A stretch of DNA of 60,000 bases from Bolinopsis microptera (Eukaryota > Ctenophora > Tentaculata > Lobata > Bolinopsidae), in the NCBI RefSeq assembly GCF_026151205.1, contig NC_087076.1:10146902-10206901 (forward strand). Reading direction: 5' to 3'. The notes beneath the pieces were generated by a model. The model was not told the DNA's origin. It saw only the letters and a list, made by a program, of their open reading frames with translations, and did not search any database. Below, piece by piece: positions 1,813 to 52,552 of the stretch. Both the position numbers and the translations under genes were made by a program. The stretch's first letter is position 1, and each line of letters opens with the position of its first letter.

Positions 1813-3553
1813 TCAGTTATTACGGTGTCCGAATCCCCTGGACCCGTCAGGACCCCTAGGTTCTCGAGTCAAAACCATTGCGATCAAGGCGGGGCCGTTT
1901 GCGTGACTCTTCTCGTGGGCAAGGCGCTGACCCAGATACGAATTAGCAGAGGGGCTGCAGCTGAAACTGTCGCTGTACGATCCTGCGGTTCCAGACCGCG
2001 TGACTGAGGACCGGCTTGAGTAGGAATGAGGAGACTTCTCGGGGCGTTTCACGATGTGACTTTGTGGCGAGGAGCCAGCAGTGGGTGACGTGCCACTTAT
2101 TGACATTCCAAACATTTGCTTTGGAAGACTCTTTGCCATACCATACCCGTTGCTGTCACGTGGCACGCCCGTGCTGTGGTTCAGAGAGTACGCCATAGCA
2201 CAGTGCTCTGAAGACTTCCTTACTTTGGGACCATGCATTATCTTGTCGGCACCCAACTGTTTCTGCTGTCTTGTCCTCAACAGCTGCACTTGAGAGGAGC
2301 TCCTCCAGTTGTTACTGTCAGACAGCTTCAGAACAGCCAGCTCTGCCGCCTCCACTGTCTCAAACTCCACAGCAACCATGTCAGCGGTGGGGCTGCCTCG
2401 CCACCCTGGTAAGTGCAAACTGGTGATGTCGTCAGGGTACGGTTTACCTGGCGACAAAAACCTAACCAGAGTCACCCGACCAAATCCTTTAAAATAGTCC
2501 TTCACACAATCAACACTACGTTCAGAGAGCGGCAAGTTGCTGGCCATCACTGTTTTATCTGCAAACTGGTCACTTTTCTTGGGTATCGGGTGCTTCCGAC
2601 GCACCATCTTTTTATCCGTCGAAACTTTCAGCTGAGTGGACTCCTGCAGGACCTTGGAAACAGCTTTCCAATCTTGAGTCAAAGCTTGTATCTTGCGAAA
2701 TGACGTGATCCACTTTATTGATACGTAACCCATTTCATTTCGACGAATCTGCTTCGCGAGCTCCTTATCCTTGGTGACGTTGGCGTCGCTGAAGTAAAAT
2801 TCGACCTGTTCCAAGATCTTCGCCTTAGTGACGTGATCCAGTTCCGTGATAGGCGTGCCACTTGGTGTGTTAGGGGTGTTACTAATGCTGTTGTTATTGC
2901 TGTTGTTGTTGTTGTTGATGACGCTGTGCTTGTTGTTATCTAGAGCAATGTTGGTGGTAGTTGGAGGGGTCAAGAGGTCCGGTTCCTTGATCATGAGATC
3001 ACCTACTGTGGACTTGTCCGGTCCCTCTTCAGTGTCTGCTCCTGCCACAATCTTACCTGAGAGAGGGGATGGTTTTACTTCTATGTTTTCCAAGGAAATT
3101 ACCTATTTTTGATTTGTAGTCAAGGACATTGAGATAAATCGCTGATATCCATGATAATGAGTTATTGCAAAGAAAAGGATAACATTTGGAATTTTAATAA
3201 TATCTCACAGGAAACATTCATTGAAACGGAATAGCCAACTGAAGAAGTCATTACGTAAAATTATAAATGGTACTGGAGTGCTACTCAAAATAAGATTATT
3301 GTAACGAATGTTTACGATACAAAATATGTACTGACGGTTAGTCATAATATTGGAGGCATGGATAATTAGTTAACAATACAATTAATGTACATATCTTAAT
3401 AAGTTAAAAACATAATTAGTGTACACTGTACATATATAATTACCAATTATTAATAATTTTATTGATTTACTAACGGTTGTCCATAGTATTGGAGGCATTG
3501 AAGTCCAGGTCATCGAACTGAAACAACGTCTCGGCAGTGTAGAACCCCTCCAT
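1813..3553 (-). CDS. LARP6: La-related protein 6 (LARP6), two exons
   Basis: RNA-binding protein of the LARP6 family, which binds stem-loops in specific mRNAs and controls their translation and localisation. Exon 1 (3553-3475) begins with ATG and encodes an acidic start, MEGFYTAETLFQFDDLD. Exon 2 runs 3080-1813. Joining them (donor at 3474, acceptor at 3081) gives 1,347 nt, an exact 448 codons plus stop. Exon 2 has an Asn-rich low-complexity tract (NNNNNSNNNS), then a La motif with the signature QVEFYFSDANVTKDKEL, an RRM-like domain (VMASNLPLSERSVDCVKDYF), a Ser-rich tail, and a C-terminal SUZ-C type motif (REPRGPDGSRGFGH) that is diagnostic for LARP6. Exon 2 has no usable ATG before the La motif, which is why the upstream exon is needed. 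The intron is about 394 bp. Splice sites are inferred from consensus and phase. Confidence 0.9.
3331..3363 (-). repeat. Partial duplicate of LARP6 exon 1 and donor
   Basis: About 33 bp match 3470-3502 (end of LARP6 exon 1 and its splice donor) at roughly 27 of 33 positions, e.g. ATTGGAGGCAT. It sits inside the LARP6 intron and keeps the orientation. It looks like a small tandem duplication that left a decayed exon tail. Confidence 0.55.
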
Positions 3554-5525: not shown

Positions 5526-5989
5526 TTTAAGAAATAAAAGTCGAAATATTAAGAATTTGCAACTAAGAAACATATCAAGAAACATAACAAGAAAAAAAAT
5601 TAACGTTGTAAACAGTTCAAATTTCGAATATCTTGTACGATATTTTATAAATGAATAGTGCAAATCATTATAATAATATACTAATTGTGTTCTATTTCAG
5701 AATGTACCACAAACATGTTGTCTGTGTGGTTTTGATAATTGCTTAGTACTAACTGGTGTTTCATTGCTTTGTGATTCCTATAAAGTTAACAGTTTGTTCC
5801 AATATGGAATAACTTGCTCCGGGAGAAAAGACTTCTGGATATTCTTGATTTTAGTTAAACTTCTACTACATCTGTTGCTTGAAACAAGATTAAGACCGGC
5901 GCGGATCTGCTAATTCTAAACATTGATTGAAATAAATTTTCGTGCACATACAGAATAAATGGTTAATAATTTAATATATATGTAGACCA
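5526..5989. other. AT-rich flank, no gene seen
   Basis: No supported open frame. A possible acceptor (TTCTATTTCAG near 5699) has no convincing exon after it. The left limit of the neighbouring LINE may lie here. Confidence 0.4.
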
Positions 5990-6600
5990 AGCTCTGTGCA
6001 CGGGATGCTTCCTGGAAGAATCCAGTTCTTTTAGCGGGGCACCCTACCTAAAGCCAAATTGAGATATAATAATCATATTCCTAGAGAAATAATCAGAAAT
6101 CGAATACCAATCAAATAATATGATATATATGAGTAGTAACCATATTTACTATGCAAAATGCCCCAACCACATAGTGTAAATTTATATAGAATTCAAATTC
6201 CATATCATCATTAAACCTCAATACCTAGTCAATATAATAGCCCAAGCAAAATTAAATAACTTCTTATATACCTTACTGTCATACTACAAATTAATTAAAC
6301 ATTTGAAATCTGTTGACCAGAGAATAAATTTCTAAGCCTAATGCAAGTGAAATAATTTAGATGCAATAATGAATGCCTAATGTGAGTATCATTTGTCAAT
6401 GTCCTTGTAAAAAAGTCTGTACAAGAGATATGAGTAACTAATATAGAAGAAAAAACAGGAAGTTGTCGTCTGTTGTAAAATAAATAAAATATCTAGAATA
6501 TAAATTAGAATATAAAATAACATTCAGTCAATGTGTCGTCAATAAACTGTACAATTATCAAATGTTAAAACTGGGTGATACAGTCACCAAAAAAAAATAC

Positions 6601-6694
6601 TAAGTATGATAAGTTAATAAATTAAATGTGGTCTATAAAACTACCACTAAGTATAATAGGTCAATAAATTAAAAGTGGTTTATAAAACTACCAC
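6601..6694 (-). repeat. 47-bp tandem pair in the LINE 3' UTR
   Basis: Two adjacent copies of a 47-bp unit (6601-6647 and 6648-6694) differ at a few positions. Each contains CTATAAAACTACCAC or TTATAAAACTACCAC. They lie about 140 bp past the ORF2 stop. Short tandem repeats near the 3' end are known in several LINE clades, where the 3' end is recognised by the reverse transcriptase. Confidence 0.8.
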
Positions 6695-6829
6695 TGTGGG
6701 AACCCCTTCTCCAGTTAAAACATGTCAGTCATGTGCAAAATCAATCAGAATGGTAAGGTGGTAAAAAAGGGAATATCTTTTCGATACATCAATTATATAT
6801 GCCTCAGATTTAAAAGAATTAGAAGTTAC

Positions 6830-9805
6830 TTAGTTATCGGCGACTATGATTGCAGTGTAAAATTTGTCATATGAATTGTCGACGGTATAATTAGGGTCTG
6901 TTGTTATAGATGATAGTAGCTGTTTCTTATACGAATCACTAAAGCTTTTAACATCGGGCAGATTTCGTAGATCTGTTGGAACATTATTCCAACATTTTGC
7001 CCCCAAGTATTGAAAGTTTTTATGTGATGTTGATCTATTGACATAAAGGTTGCAGCTTTCGCCGCTCCTACTACCTCCTGATATGTAACTAAATTTGTTC
7101 ATAAAGTTTGTAGGACAATTGTCATGGATGATTCTAAACATATAATTTGACAGATGGAGTTGTCGTCTAAGATGGAGTGGTAACCATTTCATGTCTCTAT
7201 AAACATTAAGGCTGCTCTCTGTTTTTGGAACGTTGAGAGCTATTTTGGCTACCTTTTTGTACAGAGTGTCAAGTTCAGCAAGTTTTGTCTTGCCAGCTCT
7301 ACAATAGATCGTGTCTAAATAATCGAATTGTGGCAACATGAGTGCATTGGCAAACATTTTCCTATATTTAATGGGTAGCAGTGCTTTACTTCTATACATG
7401 GCACCAATTCTCTTCATGACCTTCCTGATAATATAATCTACATGGCTTTTGAAGTTTAATTTACTATCTAGAATGAGGCCAAGATATTTTGTCTCTTTGC
7501 ACTCCTTGATTGTGAAAGTTACCTCATTACAATCAATGGTTATTTCATCATGTTGGTCAACAGAATCAAACAATAGGAATTCAGTCTTCTTTTCATTGAG
7601 TGATAATTTATTAACACTGAGCCATTTAAAGATTGTCATAAGTTCTATTTTCATGTTTATAAATGTGCTTCTGCAGGTTTGATCAAAGAATAGTGCACCA
7701 TCATCTGCAAATAGAAAGGGCTTAGATAGGTTACAGGCATAAATGATGTCATTTATGAAGATACTAAATAATATAGGCCCAATGATGCTTCCTTGTGGTA
7801 CACCACTCAGAACTTCTAAAAATGAGCTTAGATTGCCATTGATCCTAGTGCATTGATATCTACAAGATAAGAAGTTCTTAAACCAGGTTAAAGCAATGCC
7901 ACCAATTCCATAATATGCCAATTTTTGAAGCAATATTTCATGATTCACTGTGTCAAAGGCCTTCTTAAGATCAAGAAAGATGATTCCTGGTTTATAAGAC
8001 TTAGATTTACTCATATATATTTCGTCCATCAGATCGTACATCAGATAAGTTGTGGAGTGATTTTTCCGAAAGCCATATTGATGCCGGATGAAAAGTTTGT
8101 TCTCTTCCATGTAATCAGTGAGTTGCTTGCCGACAAAGTATTCTATAAGTTTTCCTACAAGTGGAAGGATGGATATTGGCCTATAATTATTAGGATCATC
8201 TTTCATTCCTGCCTTATGGATGGGAGTTACTCTAGCTTTTTTACAAAGGGTTGGTACAACACCTGTATTAAGGCTCAGATTGACAATGTGGGTCAGTGGC
8301 TCAACTATGTGTGGTACAGCTTGCTTAAGTAAAAATAGAGGCACATTGTCATATGAGGCCTTGTCATTCTTGAGCGTTTCGACATACATTAGGATATCAG
8401 TTTCATTTATTTCTTGGAATCTATCAAATGAGATATTAGAAGTTCTAGGAGGTAAAAAATCAGTAAAACTAACTCTTTCAATATTGGGGGCCTGATTTTG
8501 TAATCTTGATCCAACATTTGCAAAATGAAAGTTAAATAGCTCAGGATCATTCTCATTGATAGTTTGACAATTAGTTGTACCAGGGGTCATATTTGATGCC
8601 AGTTTGATAGTTTTCCATATCCCTTTAAGATCATTCTTGGCACTTTTAACTTGTAGATCATCGATTACATTAGCCTTTTTGCAGGTTTTAGCTAATTTAT
8701 TTCTAATATTTCTCTGAATCTTGTAGCAATCCCAGGCCTCATTACACTTTATACATTTGCTACATGTACCACATTTATTGCAATTTCCATTGTCTCTCTT
8801 ATCCTTCTTTTTACGGAATTTCTTTAGAAGAAAATGTGTATGATTAATGGCATATAAAAGTTCAGTAGAAGGTTTATGTATGAACTTTTCATGCCTTTCT
8901 ATGGTCTTGCAAGGGAAGAAGGTTGCATATGCCTGTTCAATATGATGACAAAGGCCAGCTGTGATAGCTTCAACATCTGTACTTTCCAATAGTGGACTGT
9001 AATCAGAACAGGTGTCTAGATAGTCTAAGAATTGTTTAACATTACGTTTACAATGATTTCTAATTTCAACCTTCTCAAATTTAGGAGCTATAGGTACTTT
9101 ACAATCTATCTCACACATAATAGCTTGATGATATCCAATACGTTCATCAAGAACAGAAGATTGGACAAAATCTGCATAACAGTTAGTGAATATTACATCA
9201 ATAGTAGTCTGGGTAACATTGTCTCCACGTTTAGCAACTCTAGTTATCCCTTGAATGGTTTGAACTAGATTGTAACATCTCAAGGTCATATCTAATTTTT
9301 TGTACTGGGTGGATGAGATATTATTCTGGTCAATGTTTATATCCCCAATCCAGATAACCTTTTTCCCATTCAATTTTTTCATGCAAAAATGAATGTATTC
9401 AATAAAGTTATCAACACTGCAATAATTTCCAGAGCGATAGAAGCAGCAAACATTGATCTTGCTATTCTTAAGCTTCACCCATAATGCTTCAATGTTATCA
9501 AGCTTACTATCCATAACTAATTCTGTGTAAGCTAGTTTTTTGTTTATCATTAAGCCACAACCACCCCTAGAACTGTTTGGCCTGTCGCATCGCATAAGGT
9601 TGAAGGAGGAAGGAATATTTATGGTGTCTGTGTCAATAGTATCATTAAGATTCATCTCATTTAGGGAAAGTATGTCTAATTTATGATCTCTAATAAGTTG
9701 GGAAAGTTCATTACTTTTAGCTAAATTGAGAAGCCCTCCTTGAATGTTACAATGACCAATGCAGAGGTTGTGAAACCTATCAGCTGCATTATTAAAATTT
9801 GTCAT
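6830..9805 (-). CDS. LINE ORF2: AP endonuclease + reverse transcriptase
   Basis: Cuts target DNA and reverse-transcribes the element RNA at the nick. The ATG at 9805 gives 991 residues. The N-terminal 1-235 is an APE-type endonuclease: N20 (GHCNIQGG), E50 (LSLNE), D155/N157 (WIGDINID), D203 (TTIDVIFTN) and H226. The usual SDH box reads GYH here, so the Asp before the catalytic His is replaced. Residues 342-354 hold five Cys at exact CxxC spacing (CNKCGTCSKCIKC), an extra zinc-binding-like knot. The reverse transcriptase spans about 520-800: YRPISILPLVGKLIEY, motif A FLDLKKAFDTV (D612, D618), GVPQGSIIGPILF, catalytic FADD at 699-702, then NKLSLNEKKTEF and YLGLILD. No RNase H domain is visible. 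The C-terminal part (LPLHLRRQL...) is typical of CR1/L2-like elements. No stops or frameshifts interrupt it. Confidence 0.93.
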   Translation of the reverse strand: MTNFNNAADRFHNLCIGHCNIQGGLLNLAKSNELSQLIRDHKLDILSLNEMNLNDTIDTDTINIPSSFNLMRCDRPNSSRGGCGLMINKKLAYTELVMDSKLDNIEALWVKLKNSKINVCCFYRSGNYCSVDNFIEYIHFCMKKLNGKKVIWIGDINIDQNNISSTQYKKLDMTLRCYNLVQTIQGITRVAKRGDNVTQTTIDVIFTNCYADFVQSSVLDERIGYHQAIMCEIDCKVPIAPKFEKVEIRNHCKRNVKQFLDYLDTCSDYSPLLESTDVEAITAGLCHHIEQAYATFFPCKTIERHEKFIHKPSTELLYAINHTHFLLKKFRKKKDKRDNGNCNKCGTCSKCIKCNEAWDCYKIQRNIRNKLAKTCKKANVIDDLQVKSAKNDLKGIWKTIKLASNMTPGTTNCQTINENDPELFNFHFANVGSRLQNQAPNIERVSFTDFLPPRTSNISFDRFQEINETDILMYVETLKNDKASYDNVPLFLLKQAVPHIVEPLTHIVNLSLNTGVVPTLCKKARVTPIHKAGMKDDPNNYRPISILPLVGKLIEYFVGKQLTDYMEENKLFIRHQYGFRKNHSTTYLMYDLMDEIYMSKSKSYKPGIIFLDLKKAFDTVNHEILLQKLAYYGIGGIALTWFKNFLSCRYQCTRINGNLSSFLEVLSGVPQGSIIGPILFSIFINDIIYACNLSKPFLFADDGALFFDQTCRSTFINMKIELMTIFKWLSVNKLSLNEKKTEFLLFDSVDQHDEITIDCNEVTFTIKECKETKYLGLILDSKLNFKSHVDYIIRKVMKRIGAMYRSKALLPIKYRKMFANALMLPQFDYLDTIYCRAGKTKLAELDTLYKKVAKIALNVPKTESSLNVYRDMKWLPLHLRRQLHLSNYMFRIIHDNCPTNFMNKFSYISGGSRSGESCNLYVNRSTSHKNFQYLGAKCWNNVPTDLRNLPDVKSFSDSYKKQLLSSITTDPNYTVDNSYDKFYTAIIVADN

Positions 9806-9960
9806 CTTGTGAATCTTATTAATTCACAATGGAATGAATAAAAGTTGTAAAGTTGTGTTTAAACTAAAAAACAGAATAAAAGCAGGTTGTATTTGTCTGG
9901 ATGTCGTACTGTAAAAATAAAACTGATGGTAGGAGTGTTATGTCAGTATTCAGCAGTATT

Positions 9961-11388
9961 CTAATGGTGTGCATGATACTTCAAGTGCCTTGCTAATTTA
10001 ACTATGCCATAATCATTGAGATGGACATTATCCTCTCCATAACTACTAAAAAATGACGATTTTCTAAAGCCTTTCTTATCACTAAACAAGAAACGATTTG
10101 TCTCGGTTGAGAGCAGTTTTACATAGGTGTATTTTCTTTGCAGATTTGATATACATTCATTGATATCAGTTATAACCTTGTTTCTGGAGAAACTCTCCCG
10201 AGGTAATAAGTTAACAATTTTAATATCAGCTCCAGGTGCCCACTTGTGAAGGAAAAGTACAGGTTTTTCAATACAATTGTTTGTAAAGTCAAGAGCTCTA
10301 GCATCACCTGAAAAACTATCAGGGCACAGAAGTTTAGTCCTCATGTTGCGAGGGCTGTTCAGGATAGAGTCCACGTCATTTGTACCACACATAAGTACAA
10401 TGCTTTTCACATTATTGGTATTAAGAGTGTCTTTTCTTACATCTGATTGAAACCGTTCATTGATTGCATTGGCTGTGGCACCAGGGTAGCTGAATACATG
10501 TGCCTCATGATGTTTGGACGATAGCTTTTCTCCCTCTAATTTGGAGAACATACTAGAGCTAATGTAGACACACAAAGATTTACCAGAATGTTCTATTGAT
10601 CTAGTCTTAGGGGCCGAGGGTTCAGTGTTCTTAACTTGACTGGAAACATCAGACAGAGTAGATAAGGTTGCGCTGCCATCAATTAGGCGCAGAGTAATGT
10701 TTATTCTCATGGTTTCAGACTTGTCCTGGATGAGGCTGTGTTCAAAGCTGGTCTGGGATTGTCTGGTCATATTCATTATGTCACCATGGGAGAGGGTGAG
10801 GTCAGCAATATGAGCTCTAAGTTTGTATCTGAAGCTTAGGACTCTAGTAGCCCCTAAAGAGATGGTGGAGATCATGGAGCCTGGTGAAATTGACCTCTCG
10901 TCATCCGAGTGAAAGGGAATTCCTTGCTGACCATTTCTATACTTGGTAATCATAGCACTATTGAATTTCAATTTTGGGAACTGTGAGCGTAAGCGTTCTA
11001 GAATAGACTTTAGGTATGGATTGTCTGCTACTGGCCTTGTGTTGTGAAAGCCTCCATTGTAAGCGTAGGGAAAGTCCCCGTAATATGCAACTGCCCTATT
11101 CTCAAACTTATGAGTATAGTGGGTTTCTATATCTAACTTGGCAGTGTCAACAAACTGAAAAACTCCTCGACTCAAATCTTGGTATGGATTGATAGAGTTG
11201 CTCACATCATTGTCACCATTTACAGAGTGTTTGGGATTTTCCAAATTGATAATTTCTGCTGAATGTTCACTGTCTTCTGCTAATTTGGATAGCTCTTGGG
11301 TTAACTCAGAAACAAGATGCGAGGATGACCTATTACTGAGGGGAACATTGATAGACTGTTCACAGTGATCAGGTACCTGGGGCAACAC
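9961..11388 (-). CDS. LINE ORF1: AlkB-like 2OG-Fe(II) dioxygenase + SGNH esterase
   Basis: Accessory protein of the LINE. The frame is open from about 11445 and lacks an ATG, so the listed start is arbitrary and the N terminus may be missing. Numbering from 11388 (475 residues): about 90-236 is an AlkB-like double-stranded beta-helix domain. Visible marks are the N-Y-N pattern (N143, Y150, N152), the iron triad HSDDE (H160, D162) with H217 (FEHSL), and the 2-oxoglutarate arginines in MRINITLR (R228, R234). Residues 270-475 form an SGNH/GDSL hydrolase: SSS nucleophile block (277-279), G303, GTND (335-338) and DNVH (D453, H456). All catalytic positions of both domains look intact. Esterase domains in ORF1 are known for CR1/L2-type LINEs; AlkB domains are known from plant RNA viruses, where they repair alkylated RNA. 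The pairing here suggests repair of element RNA, which is inference. Confidence 0.85.
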   Translation of the reverse strand: MLPQVPDHCEQSINVPLSNRSSSHLVSELTQELSKLAEDSEHSAEIINLENPKHSVNGDNDVSNSINPYQDLSRGVFQFVDTAKLDIETHYTHKFENRAVAYYGDFPYAYNGGFHNTRPVADNPYLKSILERLRSQFPKLKFNSAMITKYRNGQQGIPFHSDDERSISPGSMISTISLGATRVLSFRYKLRAHIADLTLSHGDIMNMTRQSQTSFEHSLIQDKSETMRINITLRLIDGSATLSTLSDVSSQVKNTEPSAPKTRSIEHSGKSLCVYISSSMFSKLEGEKLSSKHHEAHVFSYPGATANAINERFQSDVRKDTLNTNNVKSIVLMCGTNDVDSILNSPRNMRTKLLCPDSFSGDARALDFTNNCIEKPVLFLHKWAPGADIKIVNLLPRESFSRNKVITDINECISNLQRKYTYVKLLSTETNRFLFSDKKGFRKSSFFSSYGEDNVHLNDYGIVKLARHLKYHAHH

Positions 11389-11730
11389 AGGGATAAGTGA
11401 ACCATCGCTGAGGGGAACTTTGAGTGCACTGTCACTTTCTGATAATTAATCCCCGATCCATGACCATAATCAGTCAAACCACTTGTTACTTTAAAAGCTT
11501 CTATGAAGTCCCACGTATTCGCCACTCTGCCAGCGTTGTCAAATTGAGGATTTCCAGTCTACGGCTGTAAGGAAGAGTACCCACCTCATCAATCAGACGG
11601 GTAAACCGCCTCTGGACGCTCTTCAGCTCCAAAACAGTCCCCCAACTTCCATGAGCGCAGGTGGATTCCACAATTGGACACAATACTCAAGATGAGGTCT
11701 TATTAAAGCTTCATATATATATTGTAAAGA

Positions 11731-11826
11731 ATTGTAAGGAATTTAGTTATCAGAGTAAAAGTTGTTATGATTGCTATATATAGCAATCATAACAACTTTT
11801 ACTCTGATAACTAAATTCCTTACAAT
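11731..11826. repeat. 96-bp perfect palindrome
   Basis: Two 48-bp arms with no spacer and no mismatch, centred at GCTATATATAGC (11778/11779). Arm start ATTGTAAGGAATTTAGTTAT pairs with the far end. It sits inside the decayed LINE RT tail, between the catalytic block and QRRFTR. It may be a very small foldback element or a local inverted duplication. Confidence 0.95.
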
Positions 11827-17199: not shown

Positions 17200-17760
17200 A
17201 TTCTATAGTTCTGACCAAGTTCGACGGGTGTCTGCCTACTTTACCCTTTTTAATACTCTCTACTGCAAATATCCAGTTTATTCGATAGCTGCTTTGAAGC
17301 AGCCCAGCAGCTACATTAAGATGAAGCTAAGACCACATGGGCTTCATAGAACTTAAGTTTGGTCTTAAGAGGTATGCATTTACCCTGTTCCCAAACTTTC
17401 TTGTAGTTTTGGAAAGCAAGATTTGCCAGATATAAGAATACAGCGTCTTTTTATGTCCTCATTGCTGCACAATTTGGTACCAAGTGAGATCGATGATCTC
17501 CAGGCCTCTCTTCCTCGAAGTGGCTCTCCTTTGTCATCAACTTCGTTCTTATCAGCCAGATAGAAATGTATGAACTCAGTTTTTGATTCGTTGACAAAAA
17601 TATTCCACTCTTCCAATACCTTGCATATTGGTAACATGGACTCCAAATTCTTATTGTCCTCATCCGTGAAGTCTGTGTCGTCTGCGTACTCCCAGTTGGT
17701 TGACGATGTCAACCCATCGAGATCGTTGCTCTGCGAAGCAGAGCATTCGATGCGAAGCAA
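17200..17760 (-). pseudogene. LINE reverse transcriptase fragment (YADD block)
   Basis: Right to left: EYADDTDFTDEDNKNLE with the catalytic YADD, then ILPICKVLEEW-like and NESKTEFIHFYLAD, LRGREAWRSSISLGTKLCS, RRCIL and, after a frame change at about 17400, a continuing but interrupted tail. The same RT subfamily is the likely source of the C-terminal piece at 20500-20885. Its clade differs from the two LINEs at 6-15 kb. It has frame breaks and no 5' half here. Confidence 0.75.
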
Positions 17761-17790
17761 GAATGCTAGTTCGCGCGGCGCGTCGAAGCG
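17700..17790 (-). repeat. Dispersed repeat family A, copy 2 (inverted)
   Basis: The reverse complement reads GCTTCGACGCGCCGCGCGAA, then CTTGCTTCGCATCGAATGC, then AACGATCTCGATGGGTTGAC, matching the first 118 bp of the window. It abuts the LINE RT fragment. Confidence 0.8.
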
Positions 17791-17799
17791 GTGAAGTCC

Positions 17800-18475
17800 T
17801 CCAAACTCCCAGTAGCAGGTTTTCCTCGCTACTCAAGCAGAAGCACAGACACCAAGGTTATGTCGCTCCTACATGGCCATGACATCACCTTTGCAGCCTT
17901 CCAGGCAAGGGTGGCCAACAACTGCGACCCTCAGTGTCCAAATTGTAAGGTATTGAATTTTTATTTAAATTTTGAATTGCGCTGATAAAAATGTATGATT
18001 GAGACGAATCTTCGAGTAGTTCACTACTATATACTATGAGCATTATATTTTTATAAATTGTTTTACATCTCTTTATTCTGTAAAATGTGCTAAAAATTAA
18101 ATTTCTTGTTTCATTGAAAAATTGCTTGTTTCATTGATATAGTAAAAAGCTTATTTTACATTTCGATAGCATATCCAATATTCATGAGTTTATTATCGGA
18201 TGTTTAAGTTTAACTATGTTTATTATGATATTATTATTCATTGTAATATGGCAATAAAATTTAAATTTTGTTTTACTAAAATTTTTGTTTTACTATTGGA
18301 CACCAATTATCACAGACTCTTCTACTGTCCACTGTGCAGCTGCTCTTACAGGGAAACCCTGCAGGAGCATTCCTTTAATGACCAACCATGCTGGTCTATC
18401 TTAAGAGATGATAGTGATAACAGTATCACTGCCTTCTGCTCTCTAGCACAAATTGCCATTGGTGAACTATCATAG
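17800..18475 (+). pseudogene. Possible LINE C-terminal fragments
   Basis: Two short open stretches. The first (to 17949) encodes LLHGHDITFAAFQARVANNC and DPQCPNCK. The second (18310-18474) encodes LFYCPLCSCSYRETLQEH and a tail ending at a stop. Together they resemble the 'GH...F..R......CPNC.....LF.CP......R..L' region that follows RNase H in some LINE polyproteins. Splice phases do not fit a single gene. The second piece lies inside a TIR element. Weak evidence. Confidence 0.3.
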
Positions 18476-36272: not shown

Positions 36273-38134
36273 ATGTACAGGATGAGTGCACATTCTTCAG
36301 CCAATCTACTTCGTCCCAACCTCAATCACACTGACCCTCATTTTCTACAACGCAGTATCAACTCAGGAAGCTTTCACCAGGGTAGCATAAACTTCCAAGA
36401 GGCTTCTCAGCGCCGTGAGGTTGCTTCTAAAAACAGAGCAGACAATGAATCTGATGACGACCCTCTCCTGGAAGAATTAAGTCAGAGTGAAAGCATTTCA
36501 TCTTTTGGCAGATCAACCATGTTTTACAATCAGCGCCATCAATTACGGACATCCCTAAAAAACTTCTTATGACTCCATTCGAGAAGTACACGTCACGGGG
36601 TCGTGTGCCCTGGAAGCTCATATTCCACCTGCTCAAACTGCTCTGCTTAACAATGCTGCTGTTACTATTCGGACAGGATAAGTGTCAGTTAAGGACAGTA
36701 TTGAATGCCTACACAAACAATCTGGGAAATTTGCTGATTAAGGATTACAGTACAGATTCGAATCGGGACGCGTCTTTGCCAGGCGGGCCCGTTGTGCACA
36801 AGCAGTACGAAATAGCTGACTCCACTTCACATAGCCTCATCCACTTTTTCAATCTCACCAGTAGTGCTGTCGGTATATTTGGGTTCAATAAAGATAACAA
36901 CAACAAAACTGTTCTGCCAGACTTGTGTGTCACACGGTTCAACAACACCATCGTCGATGTCTCGGAATGGAATTTCACTTTCGACGAGAAAACATCGACC
37001 AAATGTACAAAAGTTGACTGCAGGAACAGTACCCGACTGGAGTGTAAACGGACAGTGGTGGAAATGTTGCCCGAATCTTACAATGGCTTCATCAGCTTGA
37101 AGATGACATTCCAAATCAGGACCATCTTCTTGTCCGTGAAGGCTCGACCAAAGTGTGTGTTGTTGTATGCAACTCAAACTCTCCGGAACCAAGTTATGTC
37201 GGGAGCAATCGTCAGCGAATTTGTGTTGAGTTATGACGAATTGCCGTGCAACAAATCCAGCAAGTACGCTCCACAAGACGGTATGATCGGTTTGAGAGAG
37301 ACCCTGGGACAGATAATTATTGATTCCACTGTAATGATCCTATCCCTCATAACCGGGTTTTTGGTTTTGAAAAGGATCAGGGCAACCCTGAGGTTGTTGA
37401 TCGAAACAAGAAATTTCTACCACTTCCATTATAACAGAAAACTAACATGGTCTGAAACATGTACATTTTTCAGTGGCTGGGACTTTTTCAGTATTTTTGC
37501 TGAAATAATCACGATAGCCGGAATTGTGTTTAAGATAAACCTGGATTACGACGCAGATAGTCATCTTGACATGACTGCTGTTTTGATCGGATCTGCTGTA
37601 GCAATAAACTGGATAACAGGACTAAGGTTCCTTTCGTTTGACAAAGGATATTACATCCTGGTGTTGACATTGTCAGTAGCAATGCCTAACATTCTCCGTC
37701 TCATGATTTGCATCCTGGCCATTTATCTTGGTTACGTTCTGTGCGGCTGGGCTGTTTTTGCTCCCTACACTTACAAGTTCGCTTCAATCGGCCAAACAGT
37801 GGACACACTGTTCGCTATCATAAACGGAGATGAAATCCTTGACACCTTCATGCAGGTAACAAGCTCAAGTCACCTTCTATCCATATTCTCCAAGGTATAT
37901 TTCTACTCCTTCATTATTCTCTTCATCTACGTGGTGCTCTCTGTGATGATCTCACTGATCGGGGAGGCTATGATTGTAGCTCAGAGTTCAGTTAGGACTG
38001 GGATTGGACACTGGCTGATCGATGGGGACGTGTTCCCTGAGCTGTCTCTGGGGTATTGCACAGAGAAGGGCGAGGAGGTTGAACCCCAGCAACCCTCCGG
38101 TCAGGACATTACCGCTCCTCAGAACAGACTTTGA
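36273..38134 (+). CDS. MCOLN: Mucolipin (TRPML) cation channel, intronless, with a -1 frame change
   Basis: Endolysosomal Ca2+/cation channel of the mucolipin family. Two overlapping frames make one protein: 36273-36572 (N-terminal cytosolic part, Ser-rich with an acidic cluster ESDDDPLLEEL that contains a dileucine-type signal) and 36569-38134 (521 codons). Homology runs straight across the junction: LRTSLKN, then LLMTPFEKY, then GRVPWKL, as in the LRRxLKxFFMxPxxKYxxxxxxPWKL of animal mucolipins. In the second frame: TM1 at about 17-36, the lumenal polycystin-mucolipin domain at 40-240 with paired Cys, TM2 at about 250-270, TM3-5 at 300-392, pore helix and filter TLFAIINGDEILDTF near 410-425 (NGDD in vertebrates), TM6 at about 435-465, short C tail. 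The join needs a -1 shift at A AAA AAC. It is either programmed frameshifting, a homopolymer sequencing error, or a recent frameshift mutation. Product about 618 residues. Confidence 0.88.
36557..36563 (+). other. A AAA AAC heptamer, candidate -1 frameshift site
   Basis: In the zero frame the codons are CTA AAA AAC TTC TTA TGA, so the heptamer has the X XXY YYZ phasing of a canonical slippery site and a stop follows two codons later. After a -1 slip the frame continues as CTT CTT ATG ACT into the channel body. A small hairpin (ACACG, 9-nt loop, CGTGT at 36588-36606) lies downstream but is 24 nt away, further than the usual 5-9 nt spacer. Confidence 0.5.
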
Positions 38135-47404: not shown

Positions 47405-50400
47405 TTATGGAGTGAACTCACGCCACATGCTCCCTGCGCCCTTTTTATTCACTTTCATCATGATACCCTTCGGCGCCTTCGCTTTCAACATTTTGCTTCC
47501 TAGTTTTATACCATATTCGTGGACCCAAACATTATCCCCAGAGTCGCTCAGTAGTTGGTATTTCAGTGGTCTCGCTGGATCAAAATATTCACGACAGCCA
47601 TTGCTCCCTGTGATAGTATACTCTTTGCATTTCATTGGTGATATGATTATATCGCTGGAACTCTCACAAATTTTGTCATCCTGTTTTAATTTGAATCTAA
47701 GCTTTGCTGATGACGTAGAATTTTTCAAGCAGGATGTATGCACGTAGTACCCAGTGATTGCTTCACCCGGGGGAACACTGGCAGCAACGCTAACAAAATG
47801 GAATTGTTTGCCACCCTTGTTAACAGTCTTTGAACCCTTCCATACCTTCTTAATGTCTCCAAAATTCACTCCGATTTCTTCCACTGTCACATCGTCAGCA
47901 GAATCAGACACAATCCGAATATACATTTCTTTGTAGGGATCAAATTTACTTAAACATGAAAATGGTCCTGACACGGGGAGGGTTTCACATTTACCAATAT
48001 GTTCAATGGTAGGTCTTTCTGTTGTACACTTATTATCGCCTTGTTTTATTTCGAAGGTAATCTTTCCAGAAGTAGCATCCCAATAAGAGCATCCAGTTTT
48101 AATCCAGTATCCTGTCGGTTGTTTGCAGCCGTCAAAAATCCGATCATATGTTTCTATCAAGATGTCTCGCTTGCAACTACTACCGTGCCGGTTTTTAAAT
48201 TTGTCTTCGCATCTTCGTTTTCTTGTTTTCGTCTGATCATATCCAGATCTGCCTGTACTGTCACAATTATTTTGATCTATCCATGCACTCCAATCATCCC
48301 ATTCTGTCAACTTACCATCTTTGATAATGGGAGTGCACTCAGGGAAAGTTGAGAAATATTTTTCACATTTAAGGCCAGGACAGCAACGGCCACAGTCTGG
48401 CCCGTTGGTCTGTTTGTTACAGCTACATTTTCCAGTTCGTGCATTACATATTTCAGATGTAGTACCCTGCATACTGCAAGCACATCGCTGACAATCCGGA
48501 AAGCCAAAATACCCTGCCGCACACTTATTACAGTACGGGTAGTTTGTGTAACCTTCTGCACAAATTTCACAATCATCCCCAGCCACGTTGTTTCTGCAGT
48601 GGCAAACGCCAGTTTCCCTGTTACAGAAGTCCTCAGTTACGCCATCTTCCTCGCATCCACATGCCTTGCATGCAGGCTGTTCCGTTTCACTTAATAAGTA
48701 TGCACCAGGAAGACAAACACACCCGTATCCGCCGACTGTGTTGTTACACAATCCTAAAGATTGTGCTGATAAGCATGCTATGCTGCCTACTTCACCACTT
48801 TTGCACTCATTGACATCTTCACATCCTGTTATAACATTCTCTACAAATCCTGATGGGCAGTTACAAGTGTAAGAACCTTCGAGGTTTGTGCATGAGCCGT
48901 GTTCTCCGCATTCAACTCTGTTATCTTCACATTCATCTATGTCAACTTCTTCATATGATGACCATTGACCTGAAGTTTCCAAAGCAGAAAACTTGCAGAC
49001 TGACTCTGCAACAACATCTCCTTCTGAGTCTATCCACTGATAACCTTGTGTCGGTTCTGGTAGTTTCCGTGTTCCTCCGATGGAGTACGGAACTTCTTCA
49101 AACATGCAATTATCAGCACAAGCTAAATCTGTGACATCTAGGCTCCAGTTACCGTCCTCTCCACACTGTAAGTCGTGCACTGCCTCTTTTGAGCTCAGTA
49201 GAACAAGTGATTGATTTTCGTCAACACACTGCATATTTGTGATCGTTTGGCCCCGATAAGTAGTCCCGGCTTTGCATCCACCTCCGATCATTTCCTCCAT
49301 AACGAATGTGGAACAAGTTGAATTGATAATCTCCTTAAAATTGTTAGAATCTAGTTCAGCCTGAAGTTCCACAATTTTCATTGCCAGTTTCTTAGCAGTG
49401 ACTTCTGACCAATTATTAGATTGTCTAGCTTTCTTCAAACGATATGCCAGGTTCCAGTTCTCTATGGTGTAGGTTGCAGCGTGCAGCTCTAACAGCCTTT
49501 TCGAAGCTGCTTTGATTTGCTCAGTGTATGATTCTGTGCACCCTGGCCCTCCTACCATGTTTCCATTCATTTGTGATTTTAAGTATGAGTCTGGTTGACC
49601 TGTTATCGCATGACTAACAGCTTCTCTAGATACGTAAAGGTAGTATATGTTCGCTTCTAAGAACTCACTGAAGTCTTCCTTTAACTCATCTGTCGAGTTG
49701 TCTTGGGTGATACTAGAAAACCTTGATAAGAATACGGGAATGTACAGGCTTAATTCGTCGAAGTACCTGTTTTCAACAATTTTTTTGTCTAGGCTTACCA
49801 ACTGATCAGTCACTTTTTGGCTTGTTTCAGCGATCGCATGAACCACTATACTTGTAGCTTTCTCTGATCTATAAATCCTATCATCACGGTCCTTTTTCAG
49901 GGTCAATTGCATGGCTGTTTTCAAATTAGAAAATTCTTCTAAGATCTTTCCGGTCTCCGATTTTAGTTCGTTTAGTATTACAGACTGTGCAGACATGATT
50001 GCATTTTTATTACTTTGTTGTCCATTGCTTAATGAACGGATTTCAGTGAATATTTCATTTTTGCTATCTTCAATATCTTGTATAATGGATTCTGTTTGTG
50101 TCTGAATTGTGTCTTGTAAATCAAACATGCCGGGTACCTTGTATTTGCCTGCAATTGATAAGACTGATTCCATGAGTTCGCCATCAGGGTGGTCTTTCGA
50201 AGATACTGATATGTCGCATGCATCGCCACCCCAGCCGTAATCACACATACAGAAAGGCATAGTTTGATCAAAAGTTATGTATATCATTCGGCCATATTCG
50301 CATGGGGTTTCCTTAACTAAATTGAGGTTGAAAAGAAAACCCAATTTAACAGGAATTGTGTAAAATAAATCCATCGGATTTGACAGATCTACCTTTTTAA

Positions 50401-52552
50401 AGTCCACCTTCTCCCCAAATCTTCCGAAATCGTCCATACCAGGATTGAATCTTGTTAGATTTATTTCTTCTCTTAAGCCTTTTAAGGGTTTAAAAATATC
50501 TTGCTCAACTAGAATTTCGAACTCTGCCTCAAGATCCCATCCTATCAACATTGGATTATCAGTTTTCTTTCCATCAAATATCAATGCCATCGCTGCGTGT
50601 TCTCCTACTACTGGCCATACGTCGGGGTTTTCCTTTTTTAACAAATCTCGGAAGTGTCCAAGCTCCTCATCGACCATATTTTTGTCAGATAATTCATTGC
50701 TTTTCATTTGTAGCTGAATTTTATAAGATTCGAGAGAAGTTTTTTGGGTGCCATTCTTTGCTATATTTTCAATATACGTGCTCGATCCTAATTTCTGGTC
50801 CGAAGCAGATTTTGATGTTATGTACATGAATAGTGCCTTTTTCTTCTTATCATCTTCCGTGAGTTCTTCTAAAGGCACTTCGAAGCGCATTGATGCTGCG
50901 GTTAATGTGTATTCAGAGGAAGCAATATTTTCTCTATCATTTTCTTCCAAAAAACTAAATTGGTAAACGGAGTATTTTTTCTCCAGTTCAACTTTGATTT
51001 CATCGAGTGTCTTTTCTTGGTCTCTTAAAAGCTTGACGTCCTGAAAAATATTCAGATTATTATTGATTAGACTTGCCCAATATATGTATTCTGATACTAA
51101 AATACGTTGATTCTGGTGGGGCGGTGACACATATTTTGTGGCACGTGCAATTAAACGTGAAATTATGTGGCTAAAGATTTAGAAGCTCCAAATAAGATAA
51201 TTCGGGCGTGCATCGAAACAGTTCCTACAAAAACTGTTCAAGTACGAGCTTTGCGAAAAAAAGTTTCTTTGGGGATTTTCCAATTTCACCATTGTTCAAA
51301 ATTTGTTTAAAATCGTTTAAAGAACATGAGCATAGTCTCTTCAGTCTTCATGCGTCACACATTAAACTTAAAATATTGAAAAACAGGCTACATGGCATCA
51401 TCAGAGTACATCATTACTTACTGTGAGAGCATAGTCAGACACTTTCTTGTTACAGCCGATCCACTGCTCCGATATTTCTGCATTGATATCATATAGGTCT
51501 CTTGGGTAGCCCTTATCGTCTCCAGCCTTCACTAATCCTTGGTTCATTTCGTAGAGAAATTGTAGTTTTTGTGCGTCTTTTATGAGACCAAACATCTTAT
51601 AGCCAAATCCAAGGATCTTGGAGCAATCGTTTTTCTGTGATTTCCTGAACATGGTAAAGAGATGTTCACTGTGTAGTTCGCTTCCCTTCAAGATGAGTTG
51701 TGTGAATGTTTCAAGGTTTTTCCCGATGTCGCCGGTGCCTCTTACATAGTTAATTAAATCCTCGAGCATCCCTTTTCCTATGACAGACATAGGTTGGGTT
51801 GGGTCATTTTCATTTAGATGCATTTGGAGGCTCCCGAATTTTTCCATTCCGTGGCTTACAGATCCTTCAAATGCAATGAGTTCCGATACTATTGCGTTGA
51901 AGTCACTGTTGTCCTCCATTTGATCCAATTTAACAGCCATGGCATTTAGCGCTTTTTCTGTTTCAGCATTTCCCTTTTCAATTGCATTTAGTTCCGCCGA
52001 CTTTGCTGCCGGGATGAATAACATTACTAAGTCGAGAATAGGACCCAGGAACTGTACACAGGAAGCTAATCCTTTCAACATGTTTAATCCCTTGCTGAGC
52101 AGTTTGCTAGTTTGCTTGCCATCAAAAAAGCTTGTTAATGCCTTGGTAACTGTTTCGCCCATACCACCTTTTTCAGATAATACTGCACCTAATGCCTTAA
52201 CCCCACCAAAAACGCCTCTTGTTTCACCTAATCCTTCCAGGATTGTTTTGGTTTTATTTTTATTGTTGGTTGCTCTACGACTGTTGCTTTCATCTGAATA
52301 ATCTCCACTGTCTTTATTCCCCATAAGATCGTCATAAACATCTCTTGTCCCACTATATGGATCTTCACTCCGAGAACAAGGAATTATTGATCCAGACGTG
52401 ACGTCGTCAGTATTACCATCTACACATTGCGATTGAGACTGTGTTGTCCCATCACTAATGGCATTATAAAATGCACCTATATCTTTCCCATAATATCCTG
52501 TGCACAAGACCGCGAGTAGCAGAAAAGTCTTCGAGGATACAATTATCAGCAT
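47405..52552 (-). CDS. Large secreted EGF / laminin-EGF modular protein, two exons
   Basis: Exon 1 (52552-51422) starts at the ATG after TATTTAGG and encodes a signal peptide (MLIIVSSKTFLLLAVLCTGY); donor ACA/GTAAGT is perfect. Exon 2 (51112-47405) joins in phase 0; total 4,839 nt, 1,612 residues. Layout: acidic Ser/Asp-rich N region; helical region with a hydrophobic segment (FLGPILDLVMLFIPAA); a second helical region with one EGF-like finger (CDYGWGGDAC) and coiled coil; a TY.IENWNLAYRLKK helix block; a Cys-rich module; two calcium-binding EGF domains (DIDECEDNRVECGEHGSC, DVNECKSG); two laminin-type EGF domains; a thrombospondin-1-like stretch (LTEWDDWSAW); and two copies of an uncharacterised C-terminal domain of about 95 residues that share F.IKQ/F.LKQ, C, F.DP and SDS.D.V.V..IGV. 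The order resembles SE-cephalotoxin-like secreted proteins, which also exist in cnidarians; that match is from memory and the function is not known. Confidence 0.85.

Follow-up and report, generated by a model that had tools for sequence, protein, structure and literature searches.

The LINE copy and its surroundings

The locus described here is a copy of a LINE retrotransposon on the minus strand of a 60,000-nucleotide stretch of Bolinopsis microptera DNA (the whole of this analysed stretch is referred to as the window). The following features were assigned, with the basis of each assignment in parentheses:

5923..11447, minus strand: whole LINE copy, 5'-truncated (99.8% identical to copy L022 across 5521 bp)
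9961..11445, minus strand: ORF1, from codon 57 to the stop of a 550-residue protein (open frame, alignment of copies)
10681..11136, minus strand: predicted AlkB-type 2OG-Fe(II) dioxygenase domain, frame residues 104-255 (Pfam stretch 127-253, PDB match, alignment)
10582..10680, minus strand: poorly conserved inter-domain linker, frame residues 256-288 (alignment, selection comparison)
9964..10581, minus strand: predicted SGNH (GDSL-like) hydrolase domain, frame residues 289-494 (Pfam, profile match, alignment)
6830..9823, minus strand: ORF2, 997 codons open, first Met at 9805 (open frame, Pfam)
9308..9751, minus strand: ORF2 endonuclease, Exo_endo_phos, residues 25-172, E-value 3.9e-7 (Pfam)
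7472..8215, minus strand: ORF2 reverse transcriptase (RT), RVT_1, residues 537-784, E-value 6.3e-36 (Pfam)
5923..6829, minus strand: 3' UTR, ending in TTTCAA and one TCAA unit (comparison of copies)

Comparison with 20 other copies from the same genome defines a full-length element of ~6.0 kb, composed of a 5' UTR of ~300 bp, a 550-residue ORF1, a short spacer, ORF2 and a 3' UTR of ~900 bp. The window copy, truncated at 11447, cannot be regarded as a complete element: it is devoid of the 5' UTR and of the first 56 codons of ORF1. Judging by the alignment, the stop codon that directly precedes its first residue was created where the element joins the flanking DNA and does not stem from a mutation within the frame. 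At the 3' end, all 15 copies compared have TTTCAA, which in 13 of them is followed by at least one TCAA unit (mostly a single one). Target-site duplications were looked for and none was resolved, and a search for structured RNA in the full copy L022 (1950-8100) returned no Rfam match up to E = 1. With its two ORFs, the second of which carries an endonuclease and an RT, the element is probably of the CR1/L2-like (Jockey-superfamily) type.

Upstream, the element is flanked by what is left of a different LINE (208 residues at 25% identity to ORF2); this remnant harbors a perfect 96-bp palindrome (window 11731-11826). Elsewhere the window contains long open frames with metazoan domains, which encode a mucolipin-like channel (36491-38134, plus strand), a La-domain protein (1813-3102, minus strand) and an EGF/laminin-EGF protein (47405-51178, minus strand). 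An additional frame (17380-17832, minus strand) is similar by eye to the beginning of P0058, a Mnemiopsis gene model, and is perhaps another retroelement.

The interval 9961-11445 is a 494-codon open frame on the minus strand, encoding an AlkB-type and an SGNH domain; frame 1 of the plus strand contains many stops across the same interval. The first-pass annotation had described one frame with complete active-site patterns of both domains, and all residues it listed are present, namely H179, D181, H236, R247 and R253 of the AlkB domain and the Ser block, G322, N356, D472 and H475 of the SGNH domain; the residue numbers given there (H160, D162, H217, R228, R234, G303, N337, D453 and H456), however, are 19 below the numbering of the frame and have been replaced.

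Relatives, genomic copies and selection

A protein search reported 171 proteins related to ORF1, of which 120 were listed; 110 of the latter (ten near-identical ones were left out) were aligned with the window copy in an alignment of 111 rows (A1). Together with the two predicted domains and the adjoining ORF2, these relatives uphold the original description of the frame as a LINE ORF1 in which an AlkB domain is fused to an SGNH hydrolase. In the window ORF1, Pfam identified PF13532 (2OG-FeII_Oxy_2) in residues 127-253 with an E-value of 6e-19 and a score of 69.5 bits, above the curated cut-off of 31.2, and PF13472 (Lipase_GDSL_2) in residues 310-480 with an E-value of 0.0033 and a score of 18.4 bits, below the cut-off of 32.9. 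A Pfam scan of 80 proteins (78 A1 rows plus P0243 and P0249) at E <= 0.01 found PF13532 in 80 of 80 and PF13472 in 40 of 80. The first-pass annotation had suggested a search with exactly these two types of profile and regarded failure to find a 2OG oxygenase fold as fatal to its proposal; the 2OG oxygenase is recovered by both Pfam and PDB profiles, whereas the SGNH profile gives no such clear call.

Among proteins of known structure, the best match in a single-sequence search with the window ORF1 was human ALKBH2 (E-value 3.6e-14), with ALKBH3 also reported, and the profile built from the 111 ORF1 proteins matched ALKBH3 (1.2e-25), ALKBH2 (3e-24), E. coli AlkB (3e-6) and ALKBH5 (5e-3). The catalytic residues of the window frame align with those of human ALKBH2/ALKBH3. 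The SGNH half alone gave no single-sequence PDB match up to E = 10, but the family profile identified a putative PAF-acetylhydrolase-like (platelet-activating-factor hydrolase) chain with an E-value of 8.8e-6.

For counts of active-site residues, six A1 rows that do not contain both domains were set aside, which left 105 rows. The AlkB motifs HxD...H and RxxxxxR, which comprise the five Fe/2OG ligands, are intact in all 105; the SGNH Ser/Asn/Asp/His set (the latter two as Asp-x-x-His) is intact in 104, the exception being P0058, a gene model. P0069 and P0095 have Ser in place of the oxyanion Gly. In pairwise comparisons of 104 rows, identity falls to 32% in the AlkB domain and to 30% in the SGNH domain. 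The acidic residue E183, aligned with the ALKBH2/3 acid that contacts the base, is found in all of the 110 rows that have a residue at this position.

A CxxC motif within the first 90 residues is present in 91 of the 120 listed proteins. Two of these 120 are gene models from Mnemiopsis leidyi (P0058 and P0118); P0118 comprises the N-terminus and the SGNH domain without AlkB, which is either a real loss or an artefact of the gene model, and on this evidence AlkB may be dispensable in some lineages. Among the ORF1 and ORF2 relatives listed, four cases of identical contig size, recognized by eye (834619, 203281, 6219 and 5858 bases), indicate that the two ORFs share a contig; a fifth case of equal size (3850 bases) is too short for both ORFs and was dismissed as chance. 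Viral contigs and prokaryote genomes, searched with one peptide pattern each, yielded no confirmed relative.

In the genome itself (264.65 Mb, 232 contigs), 87 of 807 candidate matches to ORF1 were scored, hence all counts given here are lower bounds. We found at least 90 matches, which include three families of long copies: family 1 with at least 26 rows (96-100% identity over at least 487 of 494 residues; 25 of them stop-free, including the window copy), family 2 with at least 15 rows (66-68% identity, extending from residue 49 or earlier to 494; all stop-free) and family 3 with at least 6 rows (35-37% identity; all stop-free). Decayed copies, with 42% identity and 22 to 25 stops, are also present. 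The three families together provide at least 46 long stop-free matches, which is the outcome of the genome-wide search for other copies proposed in the first-pass annotation; these rows were picked for their length and hence cannot show that AlkB was never lost. Both ORFs are open in 14 of 20 fetched copies (551-552 codons in ORF1 and 996-997 in ORF2), and no more than 8 of 1485 ORF1 bases separate L022 from 18 of 19 other family-1 copies. These near-identical copies show that the element was recently mobile.

According to the first-pass annotation, other copies without the first half of ORF1 would refute the proposal by exposing the frame as a chance join. Among the 90 matches, 13 start downstream of residue 240, and, according to the coordinates, the AlkB part forms a separate neighboring match in eight of them and has no such match in five. 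This refutation finds little support, and ordinary 5' truncation would explain these five SGNH-only matches.

Comparison of L022 (family 1) with L041 (family 2) gave dN = 0.100, dS = 1.133 and omega = 0.088 for the AlkB domain and an omega of 0.43 for the linker; for the SGNH domain dN was 0.224 with dS saturated, and in comparisons with family 3 both domains were saturated. Within family 1, substitutions were counted in 20 copies (19 of the 20 fetched copies, L039 being left out, plus the window copy) and, for ORF2, in 15 copies; neither the singleton counts nor the pairwise sums include a model of mutation bias, and the pairs are not independent. Singletons in the AlkB domain comprise 11 synonymous and 12 non-synonymous changes (p = 0.0048, omega ~0.30), those in ORF2 35 and 37 (p = 6e-8, omega ~0.27), those in the SGNH domain 6 and 12 (p = 0.15, not significant) and those in residues 1-88 2 and 14, indicating no constraint. 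The pairwise-sum ratios are 0.18 for AlkB, 0.35 for SGNH and 3.2 for residues 1-88. Within the limits of these counts, selection on the AlkB domain looks similar to that on ORF2.

A chance join or an assembly artefact could be invoked on the ground that the window copy is 5'-truncated and lies beside a fragment of another LINE, but the 171 related proteins, the at least 46 long stop-free matches in the genome and the purifying selection rule it out, and its probability is practically nil. Purifying selection maintains the AlkB-SGNH fusion, and its two catalytic centres are intact.

Placement of the AlkB domain and probable exchange of ORF1

The phylogenetic tree was calculated for 56 AlkB domains, i.e. 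26 A1 rows including the window copy, 28 rows picked from another listing of 120, and human ALKBH2 and ALKBH3, with viral AlkBs and host ALKBH genes outside its scope. The LINE AlkBs sampled, together with the three close fragments P0242, P0243 and P0249, occupy one side of a branch with 100/99 support, and a quicker tree of 77 rows reproduced this split with a support of 98. Human ALKBH2 and ALKBH3, which are cellular stand-alone enzymes, are placed on the other side with the free-standing AlkBs, despite being the best matches among solved structures. The LINE rows without P0243 and P0249 do not form a single side of any branch in the best tree and do so in 24% of bootstrap trees; judging by this topology, P0243 and P0249 adjoin the LINE AlkB group or fall inside it. 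By eye, both proteins continue into SGNH-like motifs of another type, which Pfam does not call. This is a hint of a second AlkB-SGNH lineage, and the fusion may be older than the LINE family.

The ORF2 proteins of families 1 and 2 are 97-98% identical, as opposed to 66-70% for their ORF1 proteins, and such ORF1 and ORF2 matches lie side by side, according to their coordinates, in at least 13 pairs (46 of 6540 ORF2 candidates were scored). At the DNA level, L043 (C9:3876900-3882000) is 69.9% identical to L022 in ORF1 (1085 of 1553) and 70.6% identical in the spacer and the start of ORF2; beyond about codon 50 of ORF2, identity rises to 98.6% (2779 of 2818). Because this step in identity is sharp, we place a putative recombination junction at approximately codon 50 of ORF2. 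Thus, the 5' part with ORF1 appears to have been exchanged between lineages as a module, as judged from the one pair measured at the DNA level. Both exchanged versions of ORF1 retain AlkB and SGNH. Exchange of ORF1 between LINEs has been proposed earlier (PMC4120745).

Proposed function and relation to known systems

We propose, with a probability of about one half, that the ORF1 protein strips m1A and m3C from the RNA of its own element, the AlkB domain serving both to hold the RNA and to protect its reverse transcription. The protein would multimerise via its CxxC/leucine-rich N-terminus and coat the element RNA in cis; its ALKBH2/3-like domain would hold single-stranded RNA and oxidatively remove those methyl groups of the Watson-Crick face (m1A, m3C) that stop or mislead the RT of the element, which would favor full-length and faithful copies. 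The esterase would act at membranes or in the RNP, as has been suggested for the esterases of other ORF1 proteins. According to a review (PMC9636272), RTs stop or introduce mutations at bases modified on the Watson-Crick face, and treatment with AlkB before cDNA synthesis removes m1A and m3C.

We favor m1A/m3C over m6A because the domain scores far closer to ALKBH3 and ALKBH2 than to ALKBH5. An AlkB domain could also erase m6A or another mark from the RNA of the element or the host and allow the element to escape silencing, a role proposed for an AlkB of an orchid Ty3/Gypsy element, which provides a precedent: according to PMC9289625, this ALKBH5-like protein binds RNA, and demethylation of m6A was measured in vitro. 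The LINE domain, on the contrary, matches ALKBH5 with an E-value of 5e-3 as compared to 1e-25 for ALKBH3, and we regard such an evasion as unlikely. ALKBH2 works on DNA, hence the substrate could instead be cDNA or the target DNA; in the course of target-primed reverse transcription, the AlkB domain would then mend alkylated single strands of either. Such a role is favored by the single-sequence search, in which this DNA repair enzyme ranks first, but the family profile slightly prefers ALKBH3, and ORF1 proteins are generally known mainly to package RNA; altogether, we find repair of DNA quite improbable.

Returning to the template RNA as the preferred substrate, the AlkB domain would supply an RNA-handling domain, since the esterase ORF1s studied so far are devoid of a structural RNA-binding domain: PMC3905857 describes none in the esterase ORF1s of RepBase, and reports that the ZfL2-1 esterase bound lipid and did not bind oligo-A RNA. 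The same deficiency would agree with AlkB being an RNA-binding scaffold whose catalysis is irrelevant, but this is very unlikely, given that the Fe/2OG ligands have survived in every row compared although the sequences around them have diverged as far as stated above. The broader account, in which an ORF1 protein that cleans its template of m1A/m3C is at the same time a module that LINE families swap through recombination close to where ORF2 begins, and the source of the RNA-handling domain missing in esterase ORF1s, is put forward tentatively, as a possibility to which we would assign somewhat less than even odds.

The closest counterpart among LINE proteins is the type IV (esterase) ORF1 of CR1/L2 elements, exemplified by ZfL2-1 from zebrafish. 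The two have in common a zinc-finger/leucine-zipper-like N-terminus, an SGNH esterase with Ser, Gly, Asn, Asp and His, and an element with two ORFs, the second of which contains an endonuclease and RT; the ctenophore protein differs by the AlkB domain between the N-terminus and the esterase. Another difference concerns the transposon-specific H191 of ZfL2-1, located four residues before the oxyanion Asn, whose position is taken by Met, Leu or Phe in 105 of 105 rows, assuming no gap between them. Since this His, a hallmark of the transposon esterases described so far, is absent (0 of 105), the SGNH domain may be a separate capture. The ORF1 survey PMC4120745 places esterase ORF1s in vertebrate groups only, and its main text makes no mention of AlkB, dioxygenase or 2OG; AlkB and dioxygenase are likewise not mentioned in PMC5408684.

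As to other replicons, the Phalaenopsis Ty3/Gypsy paALKBH5-like protein is similarly an AlkB with HxD..H and RxxxxxR encoded by a retrotransposon, but it is an ALKBH5-like product of a separate ORF of an LTR element in one orchid genus, unlike the esterase-fused domain of the LINE, which is nearer to ALKBH2/3. The orchid element is the nearest precedent, and carries the only retrotransposon AlkB, that we found in the open literature. The AlkBs of Alphaflexiviridae, Betaflexiviridae and Closteroviridae are also carried by RNA-based replicons (PMC9289625); they belong to plant RNA viruses and are likened here by description and not by sequence. We found no LINE with an AlkB domain in the open literature, i.e. 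outside Repbase and subscription papers, where an earlier record may exist. As far as searched, the protein is a variant of the esterase-type LINE ORF1 with an added AlkB domain, apparently undescribed in the open literature.

If the proposed function is true, the element would be, as far as the open literature goes, the first non-LTR retrotransposon with its own nucleic-acid demethylase, encoded in an ORF1 protein with two predicted enzyme domains. Two questions would become accessible to testing: whether methylated bases in the template RNA restrict retrotransposition and are partly responsible for 5' truncation, and by what means ORF1 proteins of the esterase type hold RNA. The system lends itself to experiment, as a single genome provides many nearly identical copies in which neither ORF is interrupted.
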